DNA from: a virus
Virus record (IMG/VR): IMGVR_UViG_3300009181_000079
Location: 1 to 62,046 of that record
Strand: one strand, 5' to 3'
DNA length: 62,046 nt
Shown: in pieces, positions 2,958 to 61,867 of the stretch
How positions within the stretch are numbered: the first letter of the stretch is position 1
Layout: every line of letters begins with the position of its first letter
Translations under genes and position numbers: made by a program
The notes under the pieces: model-generated
Seen by the model: the letters and a program-made list of their open reading frames with translations, nothing else
Told to the model about the DNA's origin: nothing
Database searches by the model: none

Positions 2958-3754
2958 ACCAACTCATCATCGCACCTCCAATCGGCGAAACCCCATCCAT
3001 CCACATCACGGAGGAGGGACAGAAAATCAAATCCACGCTGATTCACGCGGCCATTGAGGTCGCGCAGATAGTCACCGCCGAACAGCGAGACAATGCCCTC
3101 GTCGCCGCCGGAAACATCAAGGCCCATATTTCCGCCGTCGAAAAGACCCGCAAGGAAATCAAGGAGCCATTTCTTCAAATGGGCCGCGCAATCGACGCCG
3201 CAGCCAAGGAGCACTCAGAGGATCTTGAGTCATATCTGAAACGCCTCAACAACCTCATCGGCTCATTCGAGGATGCGCGCCGCCGCGAGCAGGAAGCCCA
3301 GGAGCGCGCCCGCCGCGCCGAGGAGGCCCGACTTGCCGAGGAGCAACGAAAAGCCCAGCAGGAGGCCGACAGGCTCGCGGAAGAGGCACGCAAGAAAGCG
3401 GAGGCCGCAGCAGCCAAGGGCAAGGAACTGACCCCAGCCCAGAAAGTCAAAGCGCTGGAGGAGCAACTCCAGGCAGAGGAAGAGCAGGAGGCCCGCGAGC
3501 GTGAACTGCGCCGACTCGAAGAAGAGCGCATGACCGCACGCCAGAAAGCCGAAGAAGCGAAGCCCACAGGAGGAGCGCTCAGGGAGGAGATTGATGTGGA
3601 GGTGACAGACATCCATGCTCTCTACAAGCACATGCCAGTCTGCGTGAAACTCACCCCCGACCTCGCCATGATCAAAGCCATGATCAAATCAGGACAGACT
3701 CTCCCAGGAGTCAGCGCCACGAAGCGCCATGTGTTCGCAACCAGGAGCCGATAA
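2954..3754 (+). CDS. DUF1351-like coiled-coil protein, recombination-associated
   Basis: 266 residues. An N-terminal helical region (about 20-100) is followed by a long charged coiled coil rich in Ala, Glu, Arg and Gln (about 105-205) and a small globular C-terminus with an EVTDIHALYKHMP stretch. This architecture resembles DUF1351-type phage proteins, which commonly sit beside RecT or Bet annealing proteins. Here the RecT-like gene lies about 230 bases downstream. The exact role of the family is not known to me. Similarity was judged by architecture only. Confidence 0.6.
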   Translation: MNQLIIAPPIGETPSIHITEEGQKIKSTLIHAAIEVAQIVTAEQRDNALVAAGNIKAHISAVEKTRKEIKEPFLQMGRAIDAAAKEHSEDLESYLKRLNNLIGSFEDARRREQEAQERARRAEEARLAEEQRKAQQEADRLAEEARKKAEAAAAKGKELTPAQKVKALEEQLQAEEEQEARERELRRLEEERMTARQKAEEAKPTGGALREEIDVEVTDIHALYKHMPVCVKLTPDLAMIKAMIKSGQTLPGVSATKRHVFATRSR

Positions 3755-3761
3755 TTTCAAT

Positions 3762-3980
3762 ATGGCATACGAACAAAAACCAAACAGCGGCTCGCTCTTT
3801 AAGAACGACCGGAAACGCGAAGGCAAGAACGACTCAGACTACACTGGAAAGGGAGTAGTCGAAGGCAACGATGTGTGGATAGACGCATGGATTAAAAACA
3901 ATCCAAAGTCACCAGACCACGACCCAGACAAGCCAGTATTCATGTCCCTTTCATTCAGACCACGACAACCCAAAAACTAA
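3762..3980 (+). CDS. DUF736-like small phage protein, possible ssDNA-binding helper
   Basis: 72 residues starting at the internal ATG (MAYEQKPNSGSLFKND), chosen because it lies just after the preceding stop and because this opening is typical of a widespread small phage protein family. The sequence alternates polar turns and strands (DYTGKGVVEG, VWIDAWIK, PVFMSLSFRPR), consistent with a small beta-barrel. Placed between the DUF1351-like and RecT-like genes, it probably belongs to the recombination module. A longer start at 3729 would overlap the upstream gene in another frame and looks wrong. Confidence 0.65.
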   Translation: MAYEQKPNSGSLFKNDRKREGKNDSDYTGKGVVEGNDVWIDAWIKNNPKSPDHDPDKPVFMSLSFRPRQPKN

Positions 3981-3986
3981 ATCACC

Positions 3987-5123
3987 ATGTCCACAGAAAT
4001 CACACCAATGCCGATGGCAGAAATGCAATCACTCGCCCAGGACGCCGCCAAGAGCGGAATGTTCGGGCTCCAAAACCCCAGCCAGGCAATCTGCCTCATG
4101 GCCCTGTGCCAGGCTGAGGGAATCAACCCGGTGCTCGCGCTCCGACGTTACCACCTCATTGAAGGCAAGCCATCCATGCGCGCAGATGCGATGTTAGCGG
4201 AGTTCGCGGCGCGAGGCGGAGGAGTCATCTGGCACGTCCGCAGTGACGAGATCGTAGCTGCCACCTTCTTCATCGACGCCAAGAAGATGGACGAGAAAGC
4301 CATCGAGCGCGCCCGCACCCGTGCAGCAGCTATGCTGGAGAACGACCACGCAACCGTGATGGAGAACTCCTACCCAGGAGAGGAAACCATCGTGCGAACG
4401 ATGGAGGATGCCGACAAGAAGAGAACCTCAATGCAGTGGGACAAGGATACCCGTCAGTTCAAGAAGAAGCATGTGTGGCAGGCCAACCCGCGCCAGATGC
4501 TCACAGCAAGAGTCATTACAGAAGGTGTCCGCCTCATCGCCCCGGGAGTGGTCGCCGGCATCTACGCACCCGAGGAGATCGAAGACTCCAAGGAATCCTT
4601 CCTGCAAGACGCAGGAGCCTCGCCATCGCACGATCTTGAGTCCATGCGGTCCATCCTGGCCCAGCACGAACAAAACGCGCTGGACGCCACCACAGAGCCG
4701 GAGCGCAAGAAGTATCAGGGTCTCGCGGCAGACATGCGCCAGAAGATTCAGGAGGCATGGGACAATGAGAAGCCGGCGAAGCTTGAGCAGGTCGGGCCGG
4801 AGCATGAGAAGATGGCCAAGCTGGTCAGGGCCGAGCCGCCCGACGACATCCCGGGACTCGAAAACTGTAAGCTGGTCAAGGGCAGCGAGATTCCACAGCC
4901 CCCGCCAAAGCCCACAGCAGATGCGCCGTGGCCAGAGCACATCATTACGTGCGTGAAGTCTGCTGCATACCGCGGCAAGCGTCTCGACTCTTTCAGCAAG
5001 GAGGAGATCGAAGTGCTTCATAACTCCTTCCAGAAAAAAGACCTCAAGGGAGGAAGTGAGGAGCTTAAGCACGAAGCCGCACAGCTCGCCAAGGCCCACG
5101 AACACTGGAGCAAGGTCAAATGA
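3987..5123 (+). CDS. RecT-like single-strand annealing protein
   Basis: 378 residues. The N-terminal two-thirds carries the pattern of RecT-family annealases: ALCQAEGINPVLALRRYHLI (about 38-57), then a RADAMLAEFAARGG stretch, and WQANPRQMLTARVITEGVRL (about 165-185). The C-terminal third is a charged tail, likely a partner-binding region. Proteins of this family anneal complementary strands during recombination-dependent replication and repair. It sits between an SSB-like small gene and further replication genes, and a RecU-like nuclease is encoded downstream. The start is an ATG after an A/C-rich leader. Confidence 0.75.
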   Translation: MSTEITPMPMAEMQSLAQDAAKSGMFGLQNPSQAICLMALCQAEGINPVLALRRYHLIEGKPSMRADAMLAEFAARGGGVIWHVRSDEIVAATFFIDAKKMDEKAIERARTRAAAMLENDHATVMENSYPGEETIVRTMEDADKKRTSMQWDKDTRQFKKKHVWQANPRQMLTARVITEGVRLIAPGVVAGIYAPEEIEDSKESFLQDAGASPSHDLESMRSILAQHEQNALDATTEPERKKYQGLAADMRQKIQEAWDNEKPAKLEQVGPEHEKMAKLVRAEPPDDIPGLENCKLVKGSEIPQPPPKPTADAPWPEHIITCVKSAAYRGKRLDSFSKEEIEVLHNSFQKKDLKGGSEELKHEAAQLAKAHEHWSKVK

Positions 5124-5850: not shown

Positions 5851-7133
5851 GCCAACCCATCCAGCCATTCATCCAAAAGCAGGAAGACGCAGCCATTGGC
5901 CTGATCTCCTGCATGAGGGCCGACCTTCTCCGCGCCGGGGCTCTCGCAAAGTCAGCAGGAATCACCGCTCACCACTTCGCCTCACCACTCGACACCGTGT
6001 TCGTCTGCATGATGGGCATGTGGGCCGATAGCCAGGAGTTTGACTGGCTCGATCTCATCCAGAGAATGAGAACCCACGGAAAGCTCACCCGGGACGGCGA
6101 GAAAGAGAGCCTCAAGGCCGCAATCTACGCCGACACGCTCATCCACACCGCCCCGTCTCACATCAACGCCCTCCTGGAGTGCGCAGCAGCCCGCAGGATG
6201 CACGAGATTGGCTCCAGACTCATGGCGAGAGCCTTTGACCTCTCCGAGCCCACCACGGAGCTTCTGGACGAGGTGCGCGACCAACTTTCTGGAGTGACCA
6301 CTCGACCCGTAGAGAACAAGACAGGGATCAAGGGGTTTGTTACGGAGGCGATCGCAGCCATCACCAGCAAGCTCAATGGAGATAATGAGGATCACGAAAC
6401 CATCGAACTCGGACTCGGGCTCGATCGCGCTGCTGGCCCATTCTACCGCTCAGATCTGGTGATCATCGCCGGAGAGACCAAGCGCGGCAAGTCGGCCCTC
6501 GCCGGGAACATCGTGGAGAACGTAGCCGCAGCCGGAAAAGCCGTCGCCCTGTTCTCTCTGGAGATGTCTGGTCGCCAGAACGCAGAGCGTATGCTCGCAA
6601 GCCAGGCTGGAGTGAACATCCGCAGCCTCAAGATGGACGGACCGGTGCCACGCGACATCTTCGACAAGGGACCCAGCGAATTTGAGCGCCTCACCAAGGC
6701 CGCAGCCAGAATCGCACAGTGGAACATCCAAATCTTCGAGAAGACTAAGAAGATCGACGCCATCGTGGCTGAGATGCACCGGATGAAGGCAACCACAGGT
6801 CTCGATCTCGCAGTCGTTGATTACGCCCAGCTCACCCGTGGGATCCGGAATGACGGAGACAACCGGGAGCGCGAGGTGGCCAGCATTTCCGGAATGCTCA
6901 AGGAAGCTGCCAGCGCATGTAACTGCTTGGTCATCCTTTTGAGCCAGCTCAATGAACACGGGAAGCTCCGCGAGTCACGCGCGCTCGGTCAAGACGCCAA
7001 CTGCGTGCTTGCAATCGAGGAGGATGGGAATGGTCGCAAGATCAGCGTCATCGCAGCCCGCTCCGCGCCAGGCAGCGAAATCCCGATCAAGTGGGAGCCT
7101 CAATACACACGATTCTCGGAGGTATCAGAATGA
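5847..7133 (+). CDS. DnaB-like replicative helicase
   Basis: 428 residues from the ATGA-overlap start at 5847; the upstream ATG at 5766 lies inside the previous gene and is rejected. The N-terminal helical domain (about 10-150) matches DnaB N-domains. The RecA-like motor has Walker A GETKRGKS (209-216), then VALFSLEMSGRQNAERMLAS (helicase motif H1a region), Walker B LDLAVVDYAQL (about 320-330) and VILLSQLNEHGKLRES (H3). The last motif is followed by the DANCVLAIEED segment usual for the family. It would unwind the replication fork. A C-terminal extension is absent, so it is slightly short. Confidence 0.9.
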   Translation: MSQPIQPFIQKQEDAAIGLISCMRADLLRAGALAKSAGITAHHFASPLDTVFVCMMGMWADSQEFDWLDLIQRMRTHGKLTRDGEKESLKAAIYADTLIHTAPSHINALLECAAARRMHEIGSRLMARAFDLSEPTTELLDEVRDQLSGVTTRPVENKTGIKGFVTEAIAAITSKLNGDNEDHETIELGLGLDRAAGPFYRSDLVIIAGETKRGKSALAGNIVENVAAAGKAVALFSLEMSGRQNAERMLASQAGVNIRSLKMDGPVPRDIFDKGPSEFERLTKAAARIAQWNIQIFEKTKKIDAIVAEMHRMKATTGLDLAVVDYAQLTRGIRNDGDNREREVASISGMLKEAASACNCLVILLSQLNEHGKLRESRALGQDANCVLAIEEDGNGRKISVIAARSAPGSEIPIKWEPQYTRFSEVSE

Positions 7134-7366
7134 CCCACCTCGATAAAATCCGGGACGAGTTCATCGAGATGGTCCACGACTCATTGGAAGAGAAAGACCG
7201 AGGCCCAGGAACCCCGTTTGACGACTGGAAGAAGATGTTCAACCGGGTCGCATCCCACAAGCAAGCGGTCCCAGAGCTGGCATACCAGCAATGCGAAGAA
7301 CTCTTTGCGAAACTACCACCACGGAAGAATAGTGCTCGACTTCCAGAGATCGAATTTACAGAGTAG
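7130..7366 (+). CDS. Small helical protein coupled to the helicase
   Basis: 78 residues from the ATGA overlap at 7130. Acidic and helical throughout (LDKIRDEFIEMVHDSLEEKD), with a WKKMFNRVAS amphipathic helix and no cysteines. Position directly behind the helicase suggests a replisome accessory role, but I do not recognise the family. Confidence 0.55.
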   Translation: MTHLDKIRDEFIEMVHDSLEEKDRGPGTPFDDWKKMFNRVASHKQAVPELAYQQCEELFAKLPPRKNSARLPEIEFTE

Positions 7367-7386
7367 GTGACATCACGCTCCCAAGC

Positions 7387-7935
7387 ATGAAATCCAAACC
7401 AACCAAATCCAAACTCACCATACCCGACCTGCTTACGGAGATCGTCCGTTCAATCACCAAGGGATCTGAGACACCGTTCGTGGAATACGACGAGGAGCAG
7501 CGAATCATCAGCTTCCGGGTCTCACCGCAGGACCACGGGCGATGTGTAGGAAAGCAAGGCAACGTCATCGCCAGCATCTCTCGCATCATCTGGCTCGCCA
7601 GCGTCATTCAGGAGCTCAGCCCGGTCGCAGTGAAGCTACTTGAGCCTGATGGCCCACGTAAGATGAACGCCAGCCTACCTGTCCTGTTCGATCCGAAGTG
7701 GAACCGGAAGGCAATCGGAAAGCTGGTTGAGGACATCATCGAATCCATCGTCCCGACCTCCGCATGGATCATCGAGGAGAAGTCCGAGACCACAGCCACC
7801 GTCACCATCCGCATCGAGGAATATCTCCAGCGTGCGCTGATGGATCCTCCATTCGAGCTGTCCCTTTCCAACGTCCTCCGCGCTGCCGGCATGGCTCAGG
7901 GTGTGAACCTCAACCTAAAACTGGAATGGGTGTAG
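7387..7935 (+). CDS. KH-domain RNA-binding protein (KhpA/type II KH-like)
   Basis: 182 residues. Residues 40-70 read FRVSPQDHGRCVGKQGNVIA, a near-canonical KH core with the GxxG loop GKQG at 55-58, very close to bacterial KhpA (IGKxGR). A second, weaker alpha/beta repeat follows at about 100-150, where a charged segment (IGKLVEDIIESIVPTSAWIIEEK) may be a degenerate second KH unit lacking the GxxG. KH proteins bind single-stranded RNA or DNA. In a phage operon it could act on phage or host transcripts or on a structured RNA. It overlaps the SWIM gene by 10 bases. The start at 7387 follows a GCTCCCAAGC leader without a clear Shine-Dalgarno site. Confidence 0.7.
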   Translation: MKSKPTKSKLTIPDLLTEIVRSITKGSETPFVEYDEEQRIISFRVSPQDHGRCVGKQGNVIASISRIIWLASVIQELSPVAVKLLEPDGPRKMNASLPVLFDPKWNRKAIGKLVEDIIESIVPTSAWIIEEKSETTATVTIRIEEYLQRALMDPPFELSLSNVLRAAGMAQGVNLNLKLEWV

Positions 7936-26174: not shown

Positions 26175-26320
26175 TTCCCCTCCTTCTTCATCTTCTCAGC
26201 CAGTCGCTCCACCTCTTGCGGTAGAGCCTTCAGCATCGCCGCGATCTTCGGGCGATACTTCTCCTTGCCTGGCTTCACATCCAGCAGGCGAGGGATTCTC
26301 GCCAACTGATCCCGGCTCAC
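26171..26320 (-). CDS. Small basic helical protein
   Basis: 49 residues, GTG start at 26320 overlapping the upstream stop, stop overlapping the next GTG. Composition is strongly basic and helical (RLLDVKPGKEKYRPKIAAML). Fills an otherwise empty 150-base gap with perfect overlaps on both sides. Confidence 0.5.
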   Translation of the reverse strand: MSRDQLARIPRLLDVKPGKEKYRPKIAAMLKALPQEVERLAEKMKKEGK

Positions 26321-26433: not shown

Positions 26434-26556
26434 TTCTATTCTCCTTTTCTTGTTTCTAACTCTGCGGACTTAAACCGCACACCATCATCCGGCATTCGCC
26501 GGGACGGTGGCACCAGCCTAGGGGATCGGGCCCTAGGCTGGTATCTCGCACTCGAA
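26434..26556 (-). promoter_or_regulatory. Hairpin between the 449-residue gene and the small membrane gene
   Basis: A perfect 12-bp inverted repeat (ACCAGCCTAGGG 26512-26523 and CCCTAGGCTGGT 26531-26542) sits just after the stop of the leftward 449-residue gene. A second GGC/GCC stem (26490-26505) follows. There is no T-tract, so an intrinsic terminator is unlikely. It could be an RNA processing or stability element between two transcription units, or an operator. Confidence 0.45.
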
Positions 26557-27906: not shown

Positions 27907-28105
27907 TTGGTTTGTTTTACTGATGCCAGCTTGTTGAAGAGATCACACACCACTGGTCCGAGTGTGTGAAATAACCAATCTTCACTCGAAGATCGGTCGG
28001 GCATGGAGACCCGTGCCTAGTTGTAGGCTCGGATTGTTTTCTCCATTGGAGTTACCTCCCTGCAACCGCCAGGTCCAATGACCCATACCTGGCGGCTGAC
28101 AGGAG
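27907..28105 (-). promoter_or_regulatory. Leader and hairpins between the 205-residue and 449-residue genes
   Basis: 199 bases without a gene. Two inverted repeats stand out: CCGCCAGGT (28066-28074) with ACCTGGCGG (28087-28095) right after the stop of the upstream gene, and TCACACAC (27943-27950) with GTGTGTGA (27962-27969) close to the ATG of the downstream gene. No T-tract and no clear promoter are visible. The second hairpin lies in the probable 5' leader and is followed by a 36-base A/C-rich unstructured stretch up to the start codon. Confidence 0.45.
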
Positions 28106-28723
28106 CTAACTTCCTGCGGCCTGTTTGGCTGCCTCTTCGAGCGCTTTGAGTTCGCGCTCGTCATTCTCATCGGAGCAGCCCCAGCAGACGTGCATGTTGA
28201 TGGCACGCTGGTTGGTCTTGCACTGAGGGCACAGGTGCTTGATGCGATCCGCCTCTACGGTGGCACGCACTCCGTCCCAGTGTGTCTGCCATTCATCCTT
28301 GCACGAAGGGCAGTATTTTCCGGGGCGACCATCCACCACCGATGATCCGATGTCGCCGCAGTAGTCGCACACGCAATAGCGAGGCAGGCGCGTGTTTTTA
28401 GTGAGCTGCCAATAGACTTCTCTGATGAGGTCCGGCCTGTCTCCGAACTGTCCTTTTTCAGACAGCCCGAATCCCATCTCATCGACCAGTAGCTCGACGA
28501 TCAGCGCGGCGACCGCTTCCGTTGAAGTGCCGCCGTCGATGAAGACGTAGGCCCGACGAACCGGATTACAGGTAAATCCGGACCTCCCGGATTTCAGCGG
28601 ACTGACGAACCTGTATCGCAGCAGGGTCGTGATTTTGAACCGATCGCCATTCTCATCCGAGAACGGCTTGATGAAGACCATGACTTTTGAGCCACAGAGG
28701 TTGAACTTGATGTGTGTTTTCAT
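28106..28723 (-). CDS. Uncharacterised multi-zinc-finger protein
   Basis: 205 residues. The C-terminal half contains CDYCGD (about 133-138), CPSCKDEW (about 152-159), CPQCKTN (about 179-185) and CWGCSDE (about 194-200): eight Cys in four CxxC knuckles, enough for two zinc fingers or ribbons. The N-terminal half is a beta-sheet (FNLCGSKVMVFIKPFSDENG; RYRFVSPLKSGRSGF). Probably a nucleic-acid-binding protein. It is preceded by a hairpin and a CAACACAAC leader. Confidence 0.6.
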   Translation of the reverse strand: MKTHIKFNLCGSKVMVFIKPFSDENGDRFKITTLLRYRFVSPLKSGRSGFTCNPVRRAYVFIDGGTSTEAVAALIVELLVDEMGFGLSEKGQFGDRPDLIREVYWQLTKNTRLPRYCVCDYCGDIGSSVVDGRPGKYCPSCKDEWQTHWDGVRATVEADRIKHLCPQCKTNQRAINMHVCWGCSDENDERELKALEEAAKQAAGS

Positions 28724-29279: not shown

Positions 29280-29527
29280 AGCCGCACCTCCCGCCCCACA
29301 GGAGAGCCAGCCTCACAGAACTCCGCGAACTCCGCGAGGATCTGCTGCTGCCCCTGATGCCGCTCGAAGCGACGGTCGATGCGCTTCTGGATTGCCAGCT
29401 TCCGCTGGACACAGGGACCGAGCTTGTTAGGGATTCCCAGCACGGGATTGATCCCGCGGTTCTTGATGAGTATATCGAGGTCAGGCTCGATGCACTTGTG
29501 ATGCTGTTGTTTCTTGTTCATGTTCAT
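29276..29527 (-). CDS. Small basic protein
   Basis: 83 residues from the ATG at 29527 (behind AAAGAAGAAACC). Basic and Gln/His-rich start (MNMNKKQQHHKCIEPDLDIL), then RIDRRFERHQGQQQILAEFAEFCEAGSP. The helical part could bind RNA or DNA. Not recognised. Confidence 0.5.
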   Translation of the reverse strand: MNMNKKQQHHKCIEPDLDILIKNRGINPVLGIPNKLGPCVQRKLAIQKRIDRRFERHQGQQQILAEFAEFCEAGSPVGREVRL

Positions 29528-29676: not shown

Positions 29677-30411
29677 TTAGGCTATGACCATCTCGCTTCC
29701 AGGCGGCAATCCGCCGGCCGCTTTGAACGTATCCAGAAGGCGGCGAAGATCCGCCGCGTTCGTCTCATTCGCAGCCATCACCAGCATGTGTTGCCCTTTG
29801 TCGTCGAGGGTCCCCTTCTCAGCTCCGGAGGCCCTTTTACTCGCGTCAATGAACCTGTTCGCGTAGAACAGGTCTTGCAGGATCATCGCGACTGTCCTGG
29901 CGTCTTGTTCGCTGATTTGCACGGCCGCCGCCTGCGCTTTGTGTTTCCATTTTACGGCCCCGACGAGCAGCAGGATACTGCACGCTCTCTGATAGACCTC
30001 GCTTCCGCGGGACCGACGCAGGAAATCCGCAACACTCCCCGGCGAGATGTATTCGTAGCCTTCATTGCCGTATCTCATGCACACCGACTGACCGGAGCGC
30101 GGCTGATCGAACACGTAGAGGTCGAACTTCTCCATTGTTCCCTCATTGGTCGGATGCTCGAATGAGCACACGTATTCCTGCGGATCATGCTGGCATCCAT
30201 CGTGCCAAAATGGGCCGTCACATATCCCGTGCTCAAGCCCGTATTCATCCTCGTATTCCGGGATGTGGACGAAGACGTTGCCGCCCTCGTCTGTCTTCTG
30301 CGCCGCGTCTGCCGCCGCCTGCGCCTCCGCAGGGGTGGCGTATTCTCCATACACCACCCATCCTGGGGTGCGTATGACTTGGTAGTTGGTTTGGTTTGTG
30401 GCGTTAGCCAT
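29677..30411 (-). CDS. First gene of the leftward operon, uncharacterised
   Basis: 244 residues. N-terminal alpha/beta part (YQVIRTPGWVVYGEYATPAEAQAAAD) followed by a Cys/His-rich stretch (GICDGPFWHDGCQHDPQEYVC), a likely metal site, and a helical C-terminus (ARTVAMILQDLFYANRFIDAS). The start is behind GGAGCAACACAAA, an A/C leader with a weak GGAG. It is directly downstream of the structured region at 30.5-31.2 kb on the same strand, so it may be transcribed with that RNA. Confidence 0.6.
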   Translation of the reverse strand: MANATNQTNYQVIRTPGWVVYGEYATPAEAQAAADAAQKTDEGGNVFVHIPEYEDEYGLEHGICDGPFWHDGCQHDPQEYVCSFEHPTNEGTMEKFDLYVFDQPRSGQSVCMRYGNEGYEYISPGSVADFLRRSRGSEVYQRACSILLLVGAVKWKHKAQAAAVQISEQDARTVAMILQDLFYANRFIDASKRASGAEKGTLDDKGQHMLVMAANETNAADLRRLLDTFKAAGGLPPGSEMVIA

Positions 30412-30499
30412 TTTGTGTTGCTCCGTTATCGGGAGACTTATGTTTGCCAGCGCAGCTTGCTGGCGGTTTGTGTTTTGCTGCCATTCTTCGTATGAAGAA
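30412..30499 (-). promoter_or_regulatory. Leader between the structured RNA and the first leftward gene
   Basis: 88 bases on the bottom strand between the end of the candidate RNA and the ATG at 30411. Holds a GCCAGC/GCTGGC stem (30447-30465) and, at the RNA end, TTCTTC/GAAGAA (30484-30499). No clear promoter. The ATG is preceded by GGAGCAACACAAA. Confidence 0.35.
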
Positions 30500-31195
30500 C
30501 GACTTGAGCCCGGAAGGATTGCTCCCTCCGGGCTCGGTGTCGTTTCTCAGTAGATTACTACTTGAGGCCACCCTTGCGTAATGGCCGACCCACCGGACAG
30601 CGGGATAGTGGCTGGATGATGCAGAGTCTCTACATCCCCGATGACGAGCCCCAAGCCCGTCATCTCCGGATTACTGGTGGTTCGCAGTCCGCCCATCGCT
30701 GGCGCGGTCCCTGCGCGATCTGCCGCTGGACGAACCAGGACGCAGTGAGCCACCTTTTTGAGGTGCGCTCGCGAGAATACAATACTCCCGCCGCTTCGAT
30801 CTCATCACCGCCGGGCTAATCTTCCATGTCGCTACCTTTGGCATATCAAGGCAACAGTTCGGGTTTCGCCATCCATGCAAGCATGGACCACCTTCCCCAG
30901 CCGAAGCTGAAGTGGTGCCGGTCGGATACTCGTGCGCCATGTTTCCATAGCACTTACAGGCCGCGATTCGAGACAAGGGATTATACTCCCTGTTCGGCCT
31001 TTAGAATTTCAATGAACAATGCTTGCCCGACGACTATCCGCGTCGGAAGAGGTCATCCCGTGAGGTTTGATTGCTCGCAAGCAGTAGGCAGCCCGGTTGT
31101 GGTTCCGGGCATTGCCAGTCCGCCAACATTTCTGTTGAGCGGGCAGGATCCGTTAAGAACACGCCTACACCCTGTTCTCGTGCCCGCTACCCATG
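30500..31195 (-). ncRNA. Candidate large structured RNA (about 690 nt)
   Basis: No convincing gene fits here on either strand, but nested complementary segments are dense. Examples: GAGCCCGGA/TCCGGGCTC (30505-30535); GATGACG/CGTCATC (30640-30664); TGGTTCG/CGAACCA (30678-30737); GAGC-CACCT-TTTTG-AGGTG-C-GCTC (30747-30770); a 16-base palindrome (30872-30887); AGGCCG/CGGCCT enclosing AGGGA/TCCCT (30958-31000); TGCTTGC/GCAAGCA enclosing CCGACG/CGTCGG (31020-31083); GGCA-GCCCGG/CCGGGC-TGCC (31087-31116); AGCGGGCA/TGCCCGCT enclosing AGAACA/TGTTCT (31138-31188). Loops are A-rich (CAAAA, AACCACAA) and one is a UUCG tetraloop when read leftward, so the bottom strand is the likely RNA. It could be a known phage large RNA class (GOLLD- or ROOL-like) or new. 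Confidence 0.5.
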
Positions 31196-31266
31196 TAACG
31201 TAAATATGTATAAATATAAATTTTTGGAGGAAAAATTTCGGGAACATTGACACCCCGACCTCTGGC
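31196..31266. promoter_or_regulatory. AT-rich divergent promoter region
   Basis: The only strongly AT-rich stretch in the region (31199-31240, TAAATATGTATAAATATAAATTTTT) lies between the candidate leftward RNA and the rightward gpW/portal genes. A TATACAT on the bottom strand (31206-31212) could be a -10 for the RNA, and TATAAAT on the top strand a -10 for the head genes. A GGAGG (31226-31230) and a TTGACA (31247-31252) follow, the latter 14 bases before the ATG at 31267. Confidence 0.5.
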
Positions 31267-31527
31267 ATGGCCTACGCCGACCATCTCCTATCCTACCGAT
31301 CCGAATCATCTGAAGACCTCATAGCAGAGAAGGCCGCACTCAAGGCACAGCGCACGATCTACTCAGCACAGGGGATGGGCACAAAATCCATGCAACGGGA
31401 TCTGCGTCTTCTGGAGGAGAGGTTGCAGGCTATCAACTTTGTCTTGAGGGAGAGAAACCCTCCTGTCATCGTGCCGCCTGTGACTAACTTTGGCGTAGGA
31501 ATCTCTGACTTCAGCACCGTCCGATGA
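31267..31527 (+). CDS. gpW-like head-to-tail joining protein
   Basis: 86 residues. Helix-turn-helix-like N-terminal part (SSEDLIAEKAALKAQRTIYS), a GMGTKSMQRDLRLLEERLQAINFVL helical core, and a short tail. gpW proteins are of this size and lie directly before the lambda-type portal gene, exactly as here (ATGA overlap with the portal). gpW closes the portal after packaging and joins the head to the tail. The start codon follows a TTGACA by 14 bases and no Shine-Dalgarno site. Confidence 0.6.
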   Translation: MAYADHLLSYRSESSEDLIAEKAALKAQRTIYSAQGMGTKSMQRDLRLLEERLQAINFVLRERNPPVIVPPVTNFGVGISDFSTVR

Positions 31528-33362
31528 GCGACAATTTGATCAAGCTCTATGATGGTCGGGGGAATGTCGTCACTGAATTTCACCCCAAGTTCAACGATGT
31601 CCGCAGGGAGATCCAATTCGGCGCGCAGTATAACCCCGCCCCTGAGAGAAGGGGCTCAAGTGGCGGAATCTATGGCAACGCGGCTCCCGAGACATGGGCT
31701 CGCAATCGGGATAGGCTTCAGTCCATGTGGGACGCGAGAGATCAATGTCAATTTAGTTGGGTTGGCGGTATGCTCGGTCGCGTCTGCCGCTACGTGGTAG
31801 GCAGGCTTCACTGCAAGTCTGAGACTCAAGACCCGCAAATTGACGCAGCCTACGACGACTACTTCCACTCCTGGTGTGGAGACGAACGGAACGAGGACGG
31901 CACAACCAACTGCGACATCACGGGCAGGGCAAGGTTCCTCAAGATGGTTCAACAGGCTTTCCTTGCTCACCTTATTGACGGCGACCATGGCTTTATCGAG
32001 GTAGCTCCAGAGTTCTCACCAACCGGAAGATACTGCCTTCAAGCAATCGAGGCGGACTGCATCGGATCCCCGAATGAACAGACTACTTTTGAGGACTATA
32101 TCGGAGGCGTGAAGATTGATGTCAATACGGGCCGGGTTCTCTACTATCGAATCTTCAAGCGCACACGCACACAGCAATATGTGAAGCTCGCAGAGGTGGA
32201 GCCAGCGAACTTCATTCATCTCAATGACTTTGACCGCTCGGGGGAATACCGGGGCCGCACCAAGCTCCTGCGCGCCCTGAACGATCTCCGAGACATCCGT
32301 GAAGCACTCACAGCCGAGATGGTCAGCGCCAAGACTCAGGCCCAGTGGTCAGCACTCATCGGAGTCAAGGACCCGTTCTCCAACCAAGGCCCGGCGGCCT
32401 GGTCGGGAAAGACCGCAGACGGCACCCCAACTCAAGACGCACAGTGGGGCAAGATTCTAAAGATGGCAGAGGGCGAGCAGTTCCAGATGCTCACCCCTTC
32501 CGCCCGTCCTTCAGGTGCTTTCATGAACCTGATTGACACCCTGATTCGCAAGCTGGCCATCAGCCTGGAACTCAGCTACGGTATGGTGTGGAACCTCGCC
32601 ACCCTCGGCGGAGCCAGCCAGCGCATCGAGACAGAAGCCGACAATCTCAAGATTCAGACCTGGCAGGATCTCCTGAAGGACTACATCCTCACACGGGTCC
32701 GGAACAAAGTCATCGCGGAAGGCATCGCCACTCAGATGCTACCACCTCATCCAGCATGGAAGAGGCACTCTTGGAGATTTGGTAAGCAGATCACCGCAGA
32801 CTTGGGCTACGAGATGGAAAGCGACCTGAAGGCCGTAGGCGCCGGCATTGCCGAGATCGAGCATGTGGTGGCCAAGCACACCGGAAAGAGCTTCAGCGAG
32901 GTCTGTGCGAGCAACACGGCGGCAGCCAATACAGCTATCAACAACGCATCGCAGGCCGGCATCCCCGTCGAAGTCACAGCCCGCGGAATGTTCCCGGACA
33001 TCACAGCCCAGCGCGCGAACTTCCTGCAAAGCCAGGCGCCACCTCCACCACCCGCAAGCCCCGTCAGCATCGGCGTCCTCGGGGACAAGGGCATCAAGCC
33101 TCTCATCGACATCATGGAGAAAGTCGGAGACGGAACGATCGACAGGGAATCCGCCATCAACGCCATCATCGAAATCTACAGCCAGCCAGGCAACGAGCTC
33201 TCCCGCCAGGACGCGGAGAAGCTCATACCAGAGGAGCCGGAAGAGGAAGACCTCAATCGGTCGGCGGGGCTCACACCTGAAGGCAAGCACGCGCCAGTGG
33301 TCGCAGGTCCGAAGCCCAGCAGCAACGGCAGTAAGCCCAAGACGAACGGAGCACGCAAATGA
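31524..33362 (+). CDS. Portal protein, lambda gpB family
   Basis: 612 residues. The sequence follows lambda-type portals: an N-terminal crown and clip region with ETWARNRDRLQSMWDARDQC; DITGRARFLKMVQQAFLAHLIDGDHG, the wing motif; and a C-terminal charged tail (about 560-612). The portal ring is the DNA entry and exit channel. The N-terminus also carries the REIQFG peptide (30-33), part of a motif shared with the downstream virion proteins. It overlaps the next gene by ATGA. Confidence 0.85.
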   Translation: MSDNLIKLYDGRGNVVTEFHPKFNDVRREIQFGAQYNPAPERRGSSGGIYGNAAPETWARNRDRLQSMWDARDQCQFSWVGGMLGRVCRYVVGRLHCKSETQDPQIDAAYDDYFHSWCGDERNEDGTTNCDITGRARFLKMVQQAFLAHLIDGDHGFIEVAPEFSPTGRYCLQAIEADCIGSPNEQTTFEDYIGGVKIDVNTGRVLYYRIFKRTRTQQYVKLAEVEPANFIHLNDFDRSGEYRGRTKLLRALNDLRDIREALTAEMVSAKTQAQWSALIGVKDPFSNQGPAAWSGKTADGTPTQDAQWGKILKMAEGEQFQMLTPSARPSGAFMNLIDTLIRKLAISLELSYGMVWNLATLGGASQRIETEADNLKIQTWQDLLKDYILTRVRNKVIAEGIATQMLPPHPAWKRHSWRFGKQITADLGYEMESDLKAVGAGIAEIEHVVAKHTGKSFSEVCASNTAAANTAINNASQAGIPVEVTARGMFPDITAQRANFLQSQAPPPPPASPVSIGVLGDKGIKPLIDIMEKVGDGTIDRESAINAIIEIYSQPGNELSRQDAEKLIPEEPEEEDLNRSAGLTPEGKHAPVVAGPKPSSNGSKPKTNGARK

Positions 33363-59622: not shown

Positions 59623-59660
59623 CGAAGTAATTCTATTGACAGGCATTCCGGGCTCTGCTA
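59623..59660 (+). promoter_or_regulatory. TTGACA element before the regulatory gene
   Basis: 38-base gap with TTGACA at 59636-59641 and the GTG start at 59661. No Shine-Dalgarno site. The same TTGAC-to-start spacing recurs before several late genes. Confidence 0.35.
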
Positions 59661-60374
59661 GTGGCCGACTTCGTGCAAAACCTACCTGGCGAATCCAACT
59701 ACGAGGCTAAACAACAGGCGCACAGCGCTGAGTATCGTAAGGAGTGGGAGAAGGCACCGGAGTCGTGGAAGAAGAAAGTGGCTGAACTGGGCCTCAGCCC
59801 TGAAACTGAAACGATGTCCGCTGCTGTGGAGATCCACGAGGGATCAGCGACCATGAGCTACGCGCCTGACATGGCGGCTACCATCGATACCCACCTGGAT
59901 CTGATCATCGAGACCATAGGGTTCAAGTATGAGCCGATCATCAGGAAGACAGCGGAGATGTTGATGATGCCGATGGCTAGGGAGATTGAGATGGAGAGAG
60001 GGATGATGCTGGGGCGTGTAACAGGATTTATTTTGAAGGCGGACAAGAGGAATGCGCTGGCGAGGGTTCATCAGATTTTACACGCGATACCAAGGCTCGC
60101 AGCAGCCAACGGTTTTCCAACGATGAGAGCGAGCGCGAGGGAGTGTGGATGCTCGGTGGAGTGGATCAAGAGGGGCAGAGATGAGTGTTGCACAGCTCTT
60201 CAAATTCCGATACCAGCCGAGGGACAAAAGAGCGCCATCGCAAAGGTCCGCTACAAAATGAAAGCCAAGATGGACCACTGGCGCCTACGTAAATTCAAAC
60301 CAACACCAACCGAACCATGCAAACCAATCCAACCGACTTCACTATTGAATTTTCCAACACCAGCATTACCCTGA
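59661..60374 (+). CDS. HTH-containing regulatory protein
   Basis: 237 residues, GTG start behind the TTGACA element. Helical. A candidate helix-turn-helix lies in ASARECGCSVEWIKRGRDE (about 157-175), followed by a basic region (KSAIAKVRYKMKAKMDHWRLRKFK). This suggests a DNA-binding regulator. The last 58 bases overlap the next gene in another frame. Not recognised by family. Confidence 0.5.
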   Translation: MADFVQNLPGESNYEAKQQAHSAEYRKEWEKAPESWKKKVAELGLSPETETMSAAVEIHEGSATMSYAPDMAATIDTHLDLIIETIGFKYEPIIRKTAEMLMMPMAREIEMERGMMLGRVTGFILKADKRNALARVHQILHAIPRLAAANGFPTMRASARECGCSVEWIKRGRDECCTALQIPIPAEGQKSAIAKVRYKMKAKMDHWRLRKFKPTPTEPCKPIQPTSLLNFPTPALP

Positions 60375-61593: not shown

Positions 61594-61842
61594 ACACTTG
61601 TAAACTTTTGTTAGCCTAAGAAGATGTATATGCAGATGCAGCAGTAAAAGAAGATCAGATAGAGGAGATAGAGAGGTGCAGGAGGGAAAGAGGATAAACT
61701 CGACTTTCTTCCCATCAACAACCCAAAGACCTTTCAGATCTCAGTGCTTGATCCATTCAAAGAACACTCCCCAGCCCCTCTCGAAACATTCCAAAACATT
61801 TTTCTGGACATCTTCCGAGCAGCGTATAGAAAGGGCGCCTGA
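61594..61842 (+). pseudogene. Decayed 3' part of the initiator-like gene
   Basis: Downstream sequence reads as protein in pieces. 61590-61616 reads VNTCKLLLA, then a stop; 61620-61700 reads EDVYADAAVKEDQIEEIERC in the same frame, then a stop. From 61672, in the frame of the upstream gene, KLDFLPINNPKTFQISVLDP and DIFRAAYRKGA follow to a TGA at 61840. A base change or small indel at each break would restore one long protein. Three interruptions in about 110 bases argue for a pseudogene or truncated gene, though assembly errors are possible. Confidence 0.45.
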
Positions 61843-61867
61843 ACCAAACCGATATGAACGAAATATT

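Follow-up and report, generated by a model that had tools for sequence, protein, structure and literature searches.

The closest described counterparts of the region analysed here are ROOL and GOLLD, of which ROOL forms an RNA-only nanocage. Phage RNA classes of comparable size are few, to our knowledge, and what ROOL and GOLLD do has yet to be explained. Both RNAs are often found near tRNA islands of phages or prophages (PMC12286853). The second relevant group comprises the boxA/nut leaders of rRNA operons, lambda nut and CRISPR leaders. A boxA is found in phage nut sites and the series boxB-boxA-boxC in rRNA leaders, and in the delivery model the Nus complex is proposed to help co-transcriptional rRNA folding (PMC6614801).

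The window, i.e. the whole stretch of DNA analysed in this study, comprises 62,046 nucleotides of an IMG/VR phage record (IMGVR_UViG_3300009181_000079). Terminase, RecT-like and DnaB-like genes are read rightward between 0 and 12.8 kb, about 40 genes, mostly of unidentified product, form a leftward operon of approximately 17.5 kb (12.9-30.4 kb), and the structural genes, again rightward, start at 31.3 kb. A weak match to a KhpA/KhpB-type KH domain, a possible RNA-binding partner, was seen in a rightward gene at 7387-7935 (E 5e-7, just under the cut-off). The related contig L003 joins the end region of the window (61780-61859) to its start (position 1 onwards), which fits a circular or permuted genome. 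At the divergent junction between the leftward operon and the structural genes lies a region that we judge, with somewhat better than even confidence, to encode a large structured RNA that is not translated, measures about 700 nt and opens the leftward operon; its production would be aided by boxA and Nus factors. The junction is organised as follows.

29677-30411, leftward strand: first protein gene of the leftward operon (244 aa, product unassigned)
30495-31195, leftward strand: body of the putative large structured RNA (about 700 nt, many stable hairpins)
31196-31266, no strand assigned: AT-rich, putative divergent promoter region between the leftward RNA and operon and the rightward small gene and portal operon
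31267-31527, rightward strand: small gene preceding the portal gene (86 aa), a syntenic anchor
31524-33362, rightward strand: portal protein (phrog_21, 7e-32), which served to find relatives

A gene finder based on codon usage, with the window as its training set, covers the sequence with genes almost completely; the longest true gap in its output is 30412-31266 (855 nt). Open reading frames within it score at most 1.6, compared with 16-180 for the flanking genes, and the top-strand frame 30826-31203 (125 aa) has a codon-usage score of -27. The description of 30500-31195 as ORF-poor, given in an earlier sequence-only reading, is therefore borne out: the region is non-coding by codon usage, lies in the largest gap of the genome and gives no coding signal in any internal frame, and no conserved coding frame was found in the window or in the corresponding blocks of relatives. 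Another gap left by the gene finder (59623-60316) is not non-coding: a real gene (59661-60374) is located there. Because a promoter scan gave no sigma-70 consensus match at the junction, we only infer a promoter in 31196-31266. The TATACAT reported just upstream of the region on the bottom strand is present, and a bottom-strand (G/A)TTACGTTTA-like word in the AT-rich segment is common to relatives.

Single-protein scans with the window's portal or 244-aa protein matched no relative. The terminase as query retrieved 16 contigs, eight of them with a portal, and portal alignments added further relatives, including L083. Portal identities define one clade comprising the window phage, L036, L038, L039, L052 and L047, joined by L083, and a second clade (L043-L050) without the block at the junction. 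Three of the relatives, L036, L038 and L047, share 55-57% portal identity with the window phage and have non-coding gaps of 1154, 1056 and 1271 nt, respectively, at the same junction (L038 is identical to L037 over the block); in L039, L052 and L083 the junction measures 183-265 nt and the large block is absent. The block carriers are thus four independent members of one phage clade, with body lengths of 0.7-1.27 kb. Essentially no similarity was detected by blastn between the four RNA bodies, and none of the four matched any of 50,697 phage records; a 25-nt match in G016 was taken as chance. Prophage scans of genome contigs with portal and terminase alignments gave no match and pointed to no host. 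What the four blocks have in common is their position, a boxA-like site, leftward tetraloops and a 3'-terminal helix, and their probable homology rests on these features, the tetraloops counting through their strand bias. Close relatives carry either the whole block or none of it, and the block therefore most probably serves as a large accessory RNA of the phage, of the kind that ROOL and GOLLD represent.

Other structured stretches were observed in these relatives. The junctions of L039 (9446-9710) and L052 (9448-9671) carry, on the leftward strand, a different, well conserved structured leader of about 200 nt followed by a small leftward gene. L006, which represents the same phage as L036, has a second hairpin-rich non-coding stretch beside the terminase gene (6849-7530, rightward), starting with the boxA-like word GTTCTTTGAAA. 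L012, a relative without the large RNA at the portal junction, contains a leftward 929-nt gap (3135-4063) in which three hairpins with canonical tetraloops and a tRNA-like stretch with a terminal CCA were seen.

An Rfam search with the window and its relatives gave no match at gathering score, GOLLD, ROOL and OLE were absent among the matches obtained for the region at E<=10, and GOLLD and ROOL among those for the three relatives at E<=5; hence the RNA is not a recognisable GOLLD, ROOL or OLE. This applies both to the covariance model of the conserved 3' half of GOLLD and to the Rfam model of ROOL, in the window as in the relatives. With ARAGORN, neither the window nor the loci of the four carriers yielded a tRNA, so that the tRNA neighbourhood frequent for GOLLD is lacking as well. 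The sequence-only reading had proposed a candidate leftward large RNA that could belong to GOLLD, to ROOL or to a new class. Membership of GOLLD or ROOL finds no support in these results, but the leftward large RNA itself is supported by the missing coding signal, the tetraloops and boxA confined to one strand, the syntenic block in three further phages and the covarying 3' elements. Like ROOL and GOLLD, the predicted RNA is phage-encoded, of roughly 600-1200 nt, highly structured, non-coding and patchily distributed among relatives; unlike them, besides the Rfam and tRNA results, it sits between a leftward operon and the portal gene and has a boxA inside. We read it as a new large structured RNA of phages.

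The bottom strand of the region folds to -311.7 kcal/mol (z -7.2, 20 shuffles; z -5.1 in a second run with 24 shuffles), and the top strand gives z -4.2 and -3.3 in two runs. The folding energy is therefore lower than that of shuffled sequences, a comparison that had been proposed earlier, but the test discriminates weakly: coding regions of similar length from the window and related phages reach bottom-strand values of -1 to -5.8, and for this reason the whole-length z was set aside as proof. The stems named previously are present, with a UUCG loop at 30898-30909 in CAGCUUCGGCUG, a CAAAA loop in CACCUCAAAAAGGUG and the loop AACCACAA in CCCGGAACCACAACCGGG. Two hairpins read from the sequence and recovered in the tetraloop count are the following.

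30898-30909, leftward strand: hairpin with UUCG tetraloop, CAGCUUCGGCUG
30872-30887, leftward strand: hairpin with G-CUUG-C tetraloop, UCCAUGCUUGCAUGGA

The tetraloop count considered 4-nt loops closed by at least 4 Watson-Crick pairs, with GNRA, UNCG, UMAC or CUUG scored as canonical. Over the four blocks, 12 of 26 tetraloop hairpins are canonical on the leftward strand vs 1 of 26 on the rightward strand (Fisher P 4e-4); coding controls gave 33/502 and 26/502 on the two strands, and no shuffle out of 600 reached 12. The window alone has four such hairpins on the bottom strand (a number reached by 0/600 shuffles) and none on the top. Taken block by block, the bias is strong in the window and L047 and weak in L036 and L038 alone. 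This leftward excess argues for a folded RNA and for leftward as its strand. The hairpins might instead act as DNA, in a replication origin or a packaging or recombination site, a reading to which inverted repeats at a divergent junction and the negative z of the top strand lend themselves; DNA cruciforms, however, would give no one-strand bias of RNA-type tetraloops and boxA, and we regard it as very improbable.

The boxA-like site is the second feature shared by the four blocks.

31007-31018, leftward strand: boxA-like element TGTTCATTGAAA, about 180 nt from the assumed RNA start, with 1 mismatch to YGYTCTTTRAMA (8/500 shuffles)

We liken this word to the boxA of rRNA operons, and YGYTCTTTRAMA is a consensus that we take to represent known boxA sequences. 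The corresponding words are TGTTCATTGAAATTCT in the window, AGTTCTTTGACAACTTCAGA in L036, TGTTCTTTGACATTATCAGA in L038 and AGTTCATTGACATTATCTGA in L047, with 1, 1, 0 and 2 mismatches (equalled in 8, 11, 1 and 177 of 500 shuffles, respectively). In 4/4 blocks the shared word is the best leftward-strand match to YGYTCTTTRAMA, one that shuffles seldom equal in three of the blocks, and no significant boxA-like match occurs on the opposite strand; each block has, on the leftward strand, a word close to the form G[CT]TCTTT[AG]A.A with 0-2 mismatches to YGYTCTTTRAMA. The motif search was in part done post hoc. With a relaxed motif, the sites lie 139-182 nt from the assumed RNA start in all four blocks, and both strands of about 127 kb yield 8 matches, 4 of which are these sites. 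Among gaps of at least 280 nt in 24 loci, a leftward boxA is found in every large-RNA gap and just one of the remaining gaps contains a boxA at all, and the relaxed motif found no such site at the short junctions of L039, L052 and L083. The predicted accessibility of the site (partition function) is only 0.38-0.57, and a scan for boxA combined with TCAGATCG returned only contigs already known. The gamma-proteobacterial consensus GYTCTTTAANA (PMC5725501) fits less well, with G for A in all four words and A for T in those of the window and L047. As in boxA/nut leaders, a boxA-like word stands on a long untranslated structured transcript; unlike in these, no boxB or boxC was recognised, and the one boxA lies within a phage RNA outside both the rRNA and the CRISPR setting. 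By likeness to rRNA operons and CRISPR arrays, the word may recruit Nus factors.

At its 3' end the body closes with a structure that is kept in all carriers.

30498-30544, leftward strand: 3'-terminal element with outer helix AACGAC/GUCGUU, internal loop ACC/AA and long inner hairpin GAGCCCGG...CCGGGCUC
30484-30499, leftward strand: short hairpin UUCUUC-AUAC-GAAGAA after the terminal element, read from the sequence

The same architecture occurs in L036 (8664-8619), L038 (8262-8220, with GCAGAC/GUCUGC as the outer helix) and L047 (8448-8403). MAFFT put hairpins in the wrong place when the terminal region was aligned, and the count was therefore limited to helix segments of equal length (cut by hand, with linkers trimmed). 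In the outer 11 pairs, 7 are changed on both sides and 43 of 44 cells are paired, and pairing as good was seen in 0/500 shuffles. The exact helix pattern derived from the window and L047 retrieved only the L047 contig among 2.9 million viral contigs (the window's own record being left out). Covariation, proposed earlier as a test, supports this helix and the leader pseudoknot described below but not the RNA body, since the interior sequences of the four members are not alignable. The lack of conservation in the body, its lengths of between 0.7 and 1.27 kb and the strong hairpins in several intergenic regions of these phages would also be expected of a drifting, non-functional spacer or of decayed genes with incidental hairpins, in which only the leader pseudoknot and the promoter were functional. 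We consider this improbable, given a genome otherwise almost gap-free, a tetraloop bias not reached in 600 shuffles, and a boxA and a terminal helix kept in every block; the strand bias fits the DNA-level and spacer readings poorly.

Downstream of the terminal element, the transcript runs into the leader of the first protein gene.

30446-30481, leftward strand: H-type leader pseudoknot GCAGC-AAAACACAAACC-GCCAGC-AA-GCUGC-GCUGGC (10 covarying pairs, 6 phages)
30421-30435, leftward strand: hairpin CUCC-CGAUAAC-GGAG with a possible Shine-Dalgarno inside (CGCC-CGAUAAC-GGCG in L052)

In the window phage and five others, 60/60 cells of the pseudoknot are paired and 10/10 pairs show double-sided changes; the observed pairing or covariation score was reached by 0/500 shuffles. 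For this count, too, the segments had been cut manually and the linkers brought to equal length by trimming. The pseudoknot is also present in L039 and L052, which lack the large RNA, and pseudoknots of similar H-type form are found ahead of other leftward genes as well (191 kb contain 13 on the leftward strand and one on the opposite strand). The pseudoknot is therefore part of protein-gene leaders, and with it the 3' limit of the large RNA is reached. The extent of 30500-31195 given earlier thus describes the body, but the functional unit is longer, the bottom-strand RNA continuing into 30481-30446. The pseudoknot resembles that of the T4 gene 32 leader, as we understand the latter, in being of H-type, in its 5' leader position upstream of a start codon and in the A-rich single strand around it; it differs in that several genes per phage carry such a pseudoknot, the A-rich segment forms loop 1, the last two strands are contiguous, and no SSB target is known for it. 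Two further examples on the leftward strand, each with an A-rich loop 1 followed by an A-rich start region, are at 29605-29575 (gene start near 29527) and at 28785-28742, ahead of the gene starting at 28723; the like also occur in L036, L039, L047, L052 and L083. Several leftward genes of the window and its relatives have start codons with an A-rich leader and no obvious Shine-Dalgarno (e.g. 28742-28724). Very strong intercistronic hairpins are found in the leftward operon at 26434-26556 and about 28000-28140 (leftward strand), and a 350-nt segment at 26296 has a fold z of -11.3.

The main rival to a free-standing RNA is that the block is a long 5' leader that acts in cis in processive antitermination (nut/put-like) of the 17.5 kb operon and has no RNA role of its own. 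It heads a long co-directional operon on the same strand, directly precedes the leader pseudoknot and start codon, and contains a boxA, as do the phage nut sites and rRNA leaders cited above. L039, L052 and L083, however, head the same kind of operon with junctions of 180-265 nt and no boxA, so such an operon can do without the block. Known nut and put sites are also far smaller than 700-1270 nt. We therefore hold this reading to be rather unlikely. Since boxA is present with the block and absent without it, the site would appear to act for the RNA and not for the operon.

According to the preferred reading, that of a large-RNA gene, transcription from the bottom strand would start near 31195, and about 180 nt further on the transcript would expose the boxA-like site, to which NusB/S10 would attach, so that Nus factors would be loaded onto RNA polymerase. 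A polymerase so equipped could complete the long untranslated RNA, correctly folded and not cut short by Rho. The body would fold into many tetraloop-capped hairpins (supported statistically, not pair by pair) and probably end in the conserved terminal helix, for which compensatory changes in four phages speak; the H-type pseudoknot leader of the first protein gene, with covariation in six phages, would follow, and the RNA may be released as a separate species.

More tentatively, and with somewhat less than even confidence, we propose that these phages have a new RNA class that borrows the production system of rRNA: a boxA-recruited Nus complex would allow an RNA of 0.7-1.3 kb to be folded co-transcriptionally and then to operate during infection as an RNA machine in its own right. 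One more class, with an expression signal that can be recognised, would provide a handle on how large phage RNAs get made. If boxA is needed, the production by phages of long untranslated RNAs despite Rho becomes testable, and the recurring, covarying leader pseudoknot constitutes a second, separately testable regulatory RNA element.
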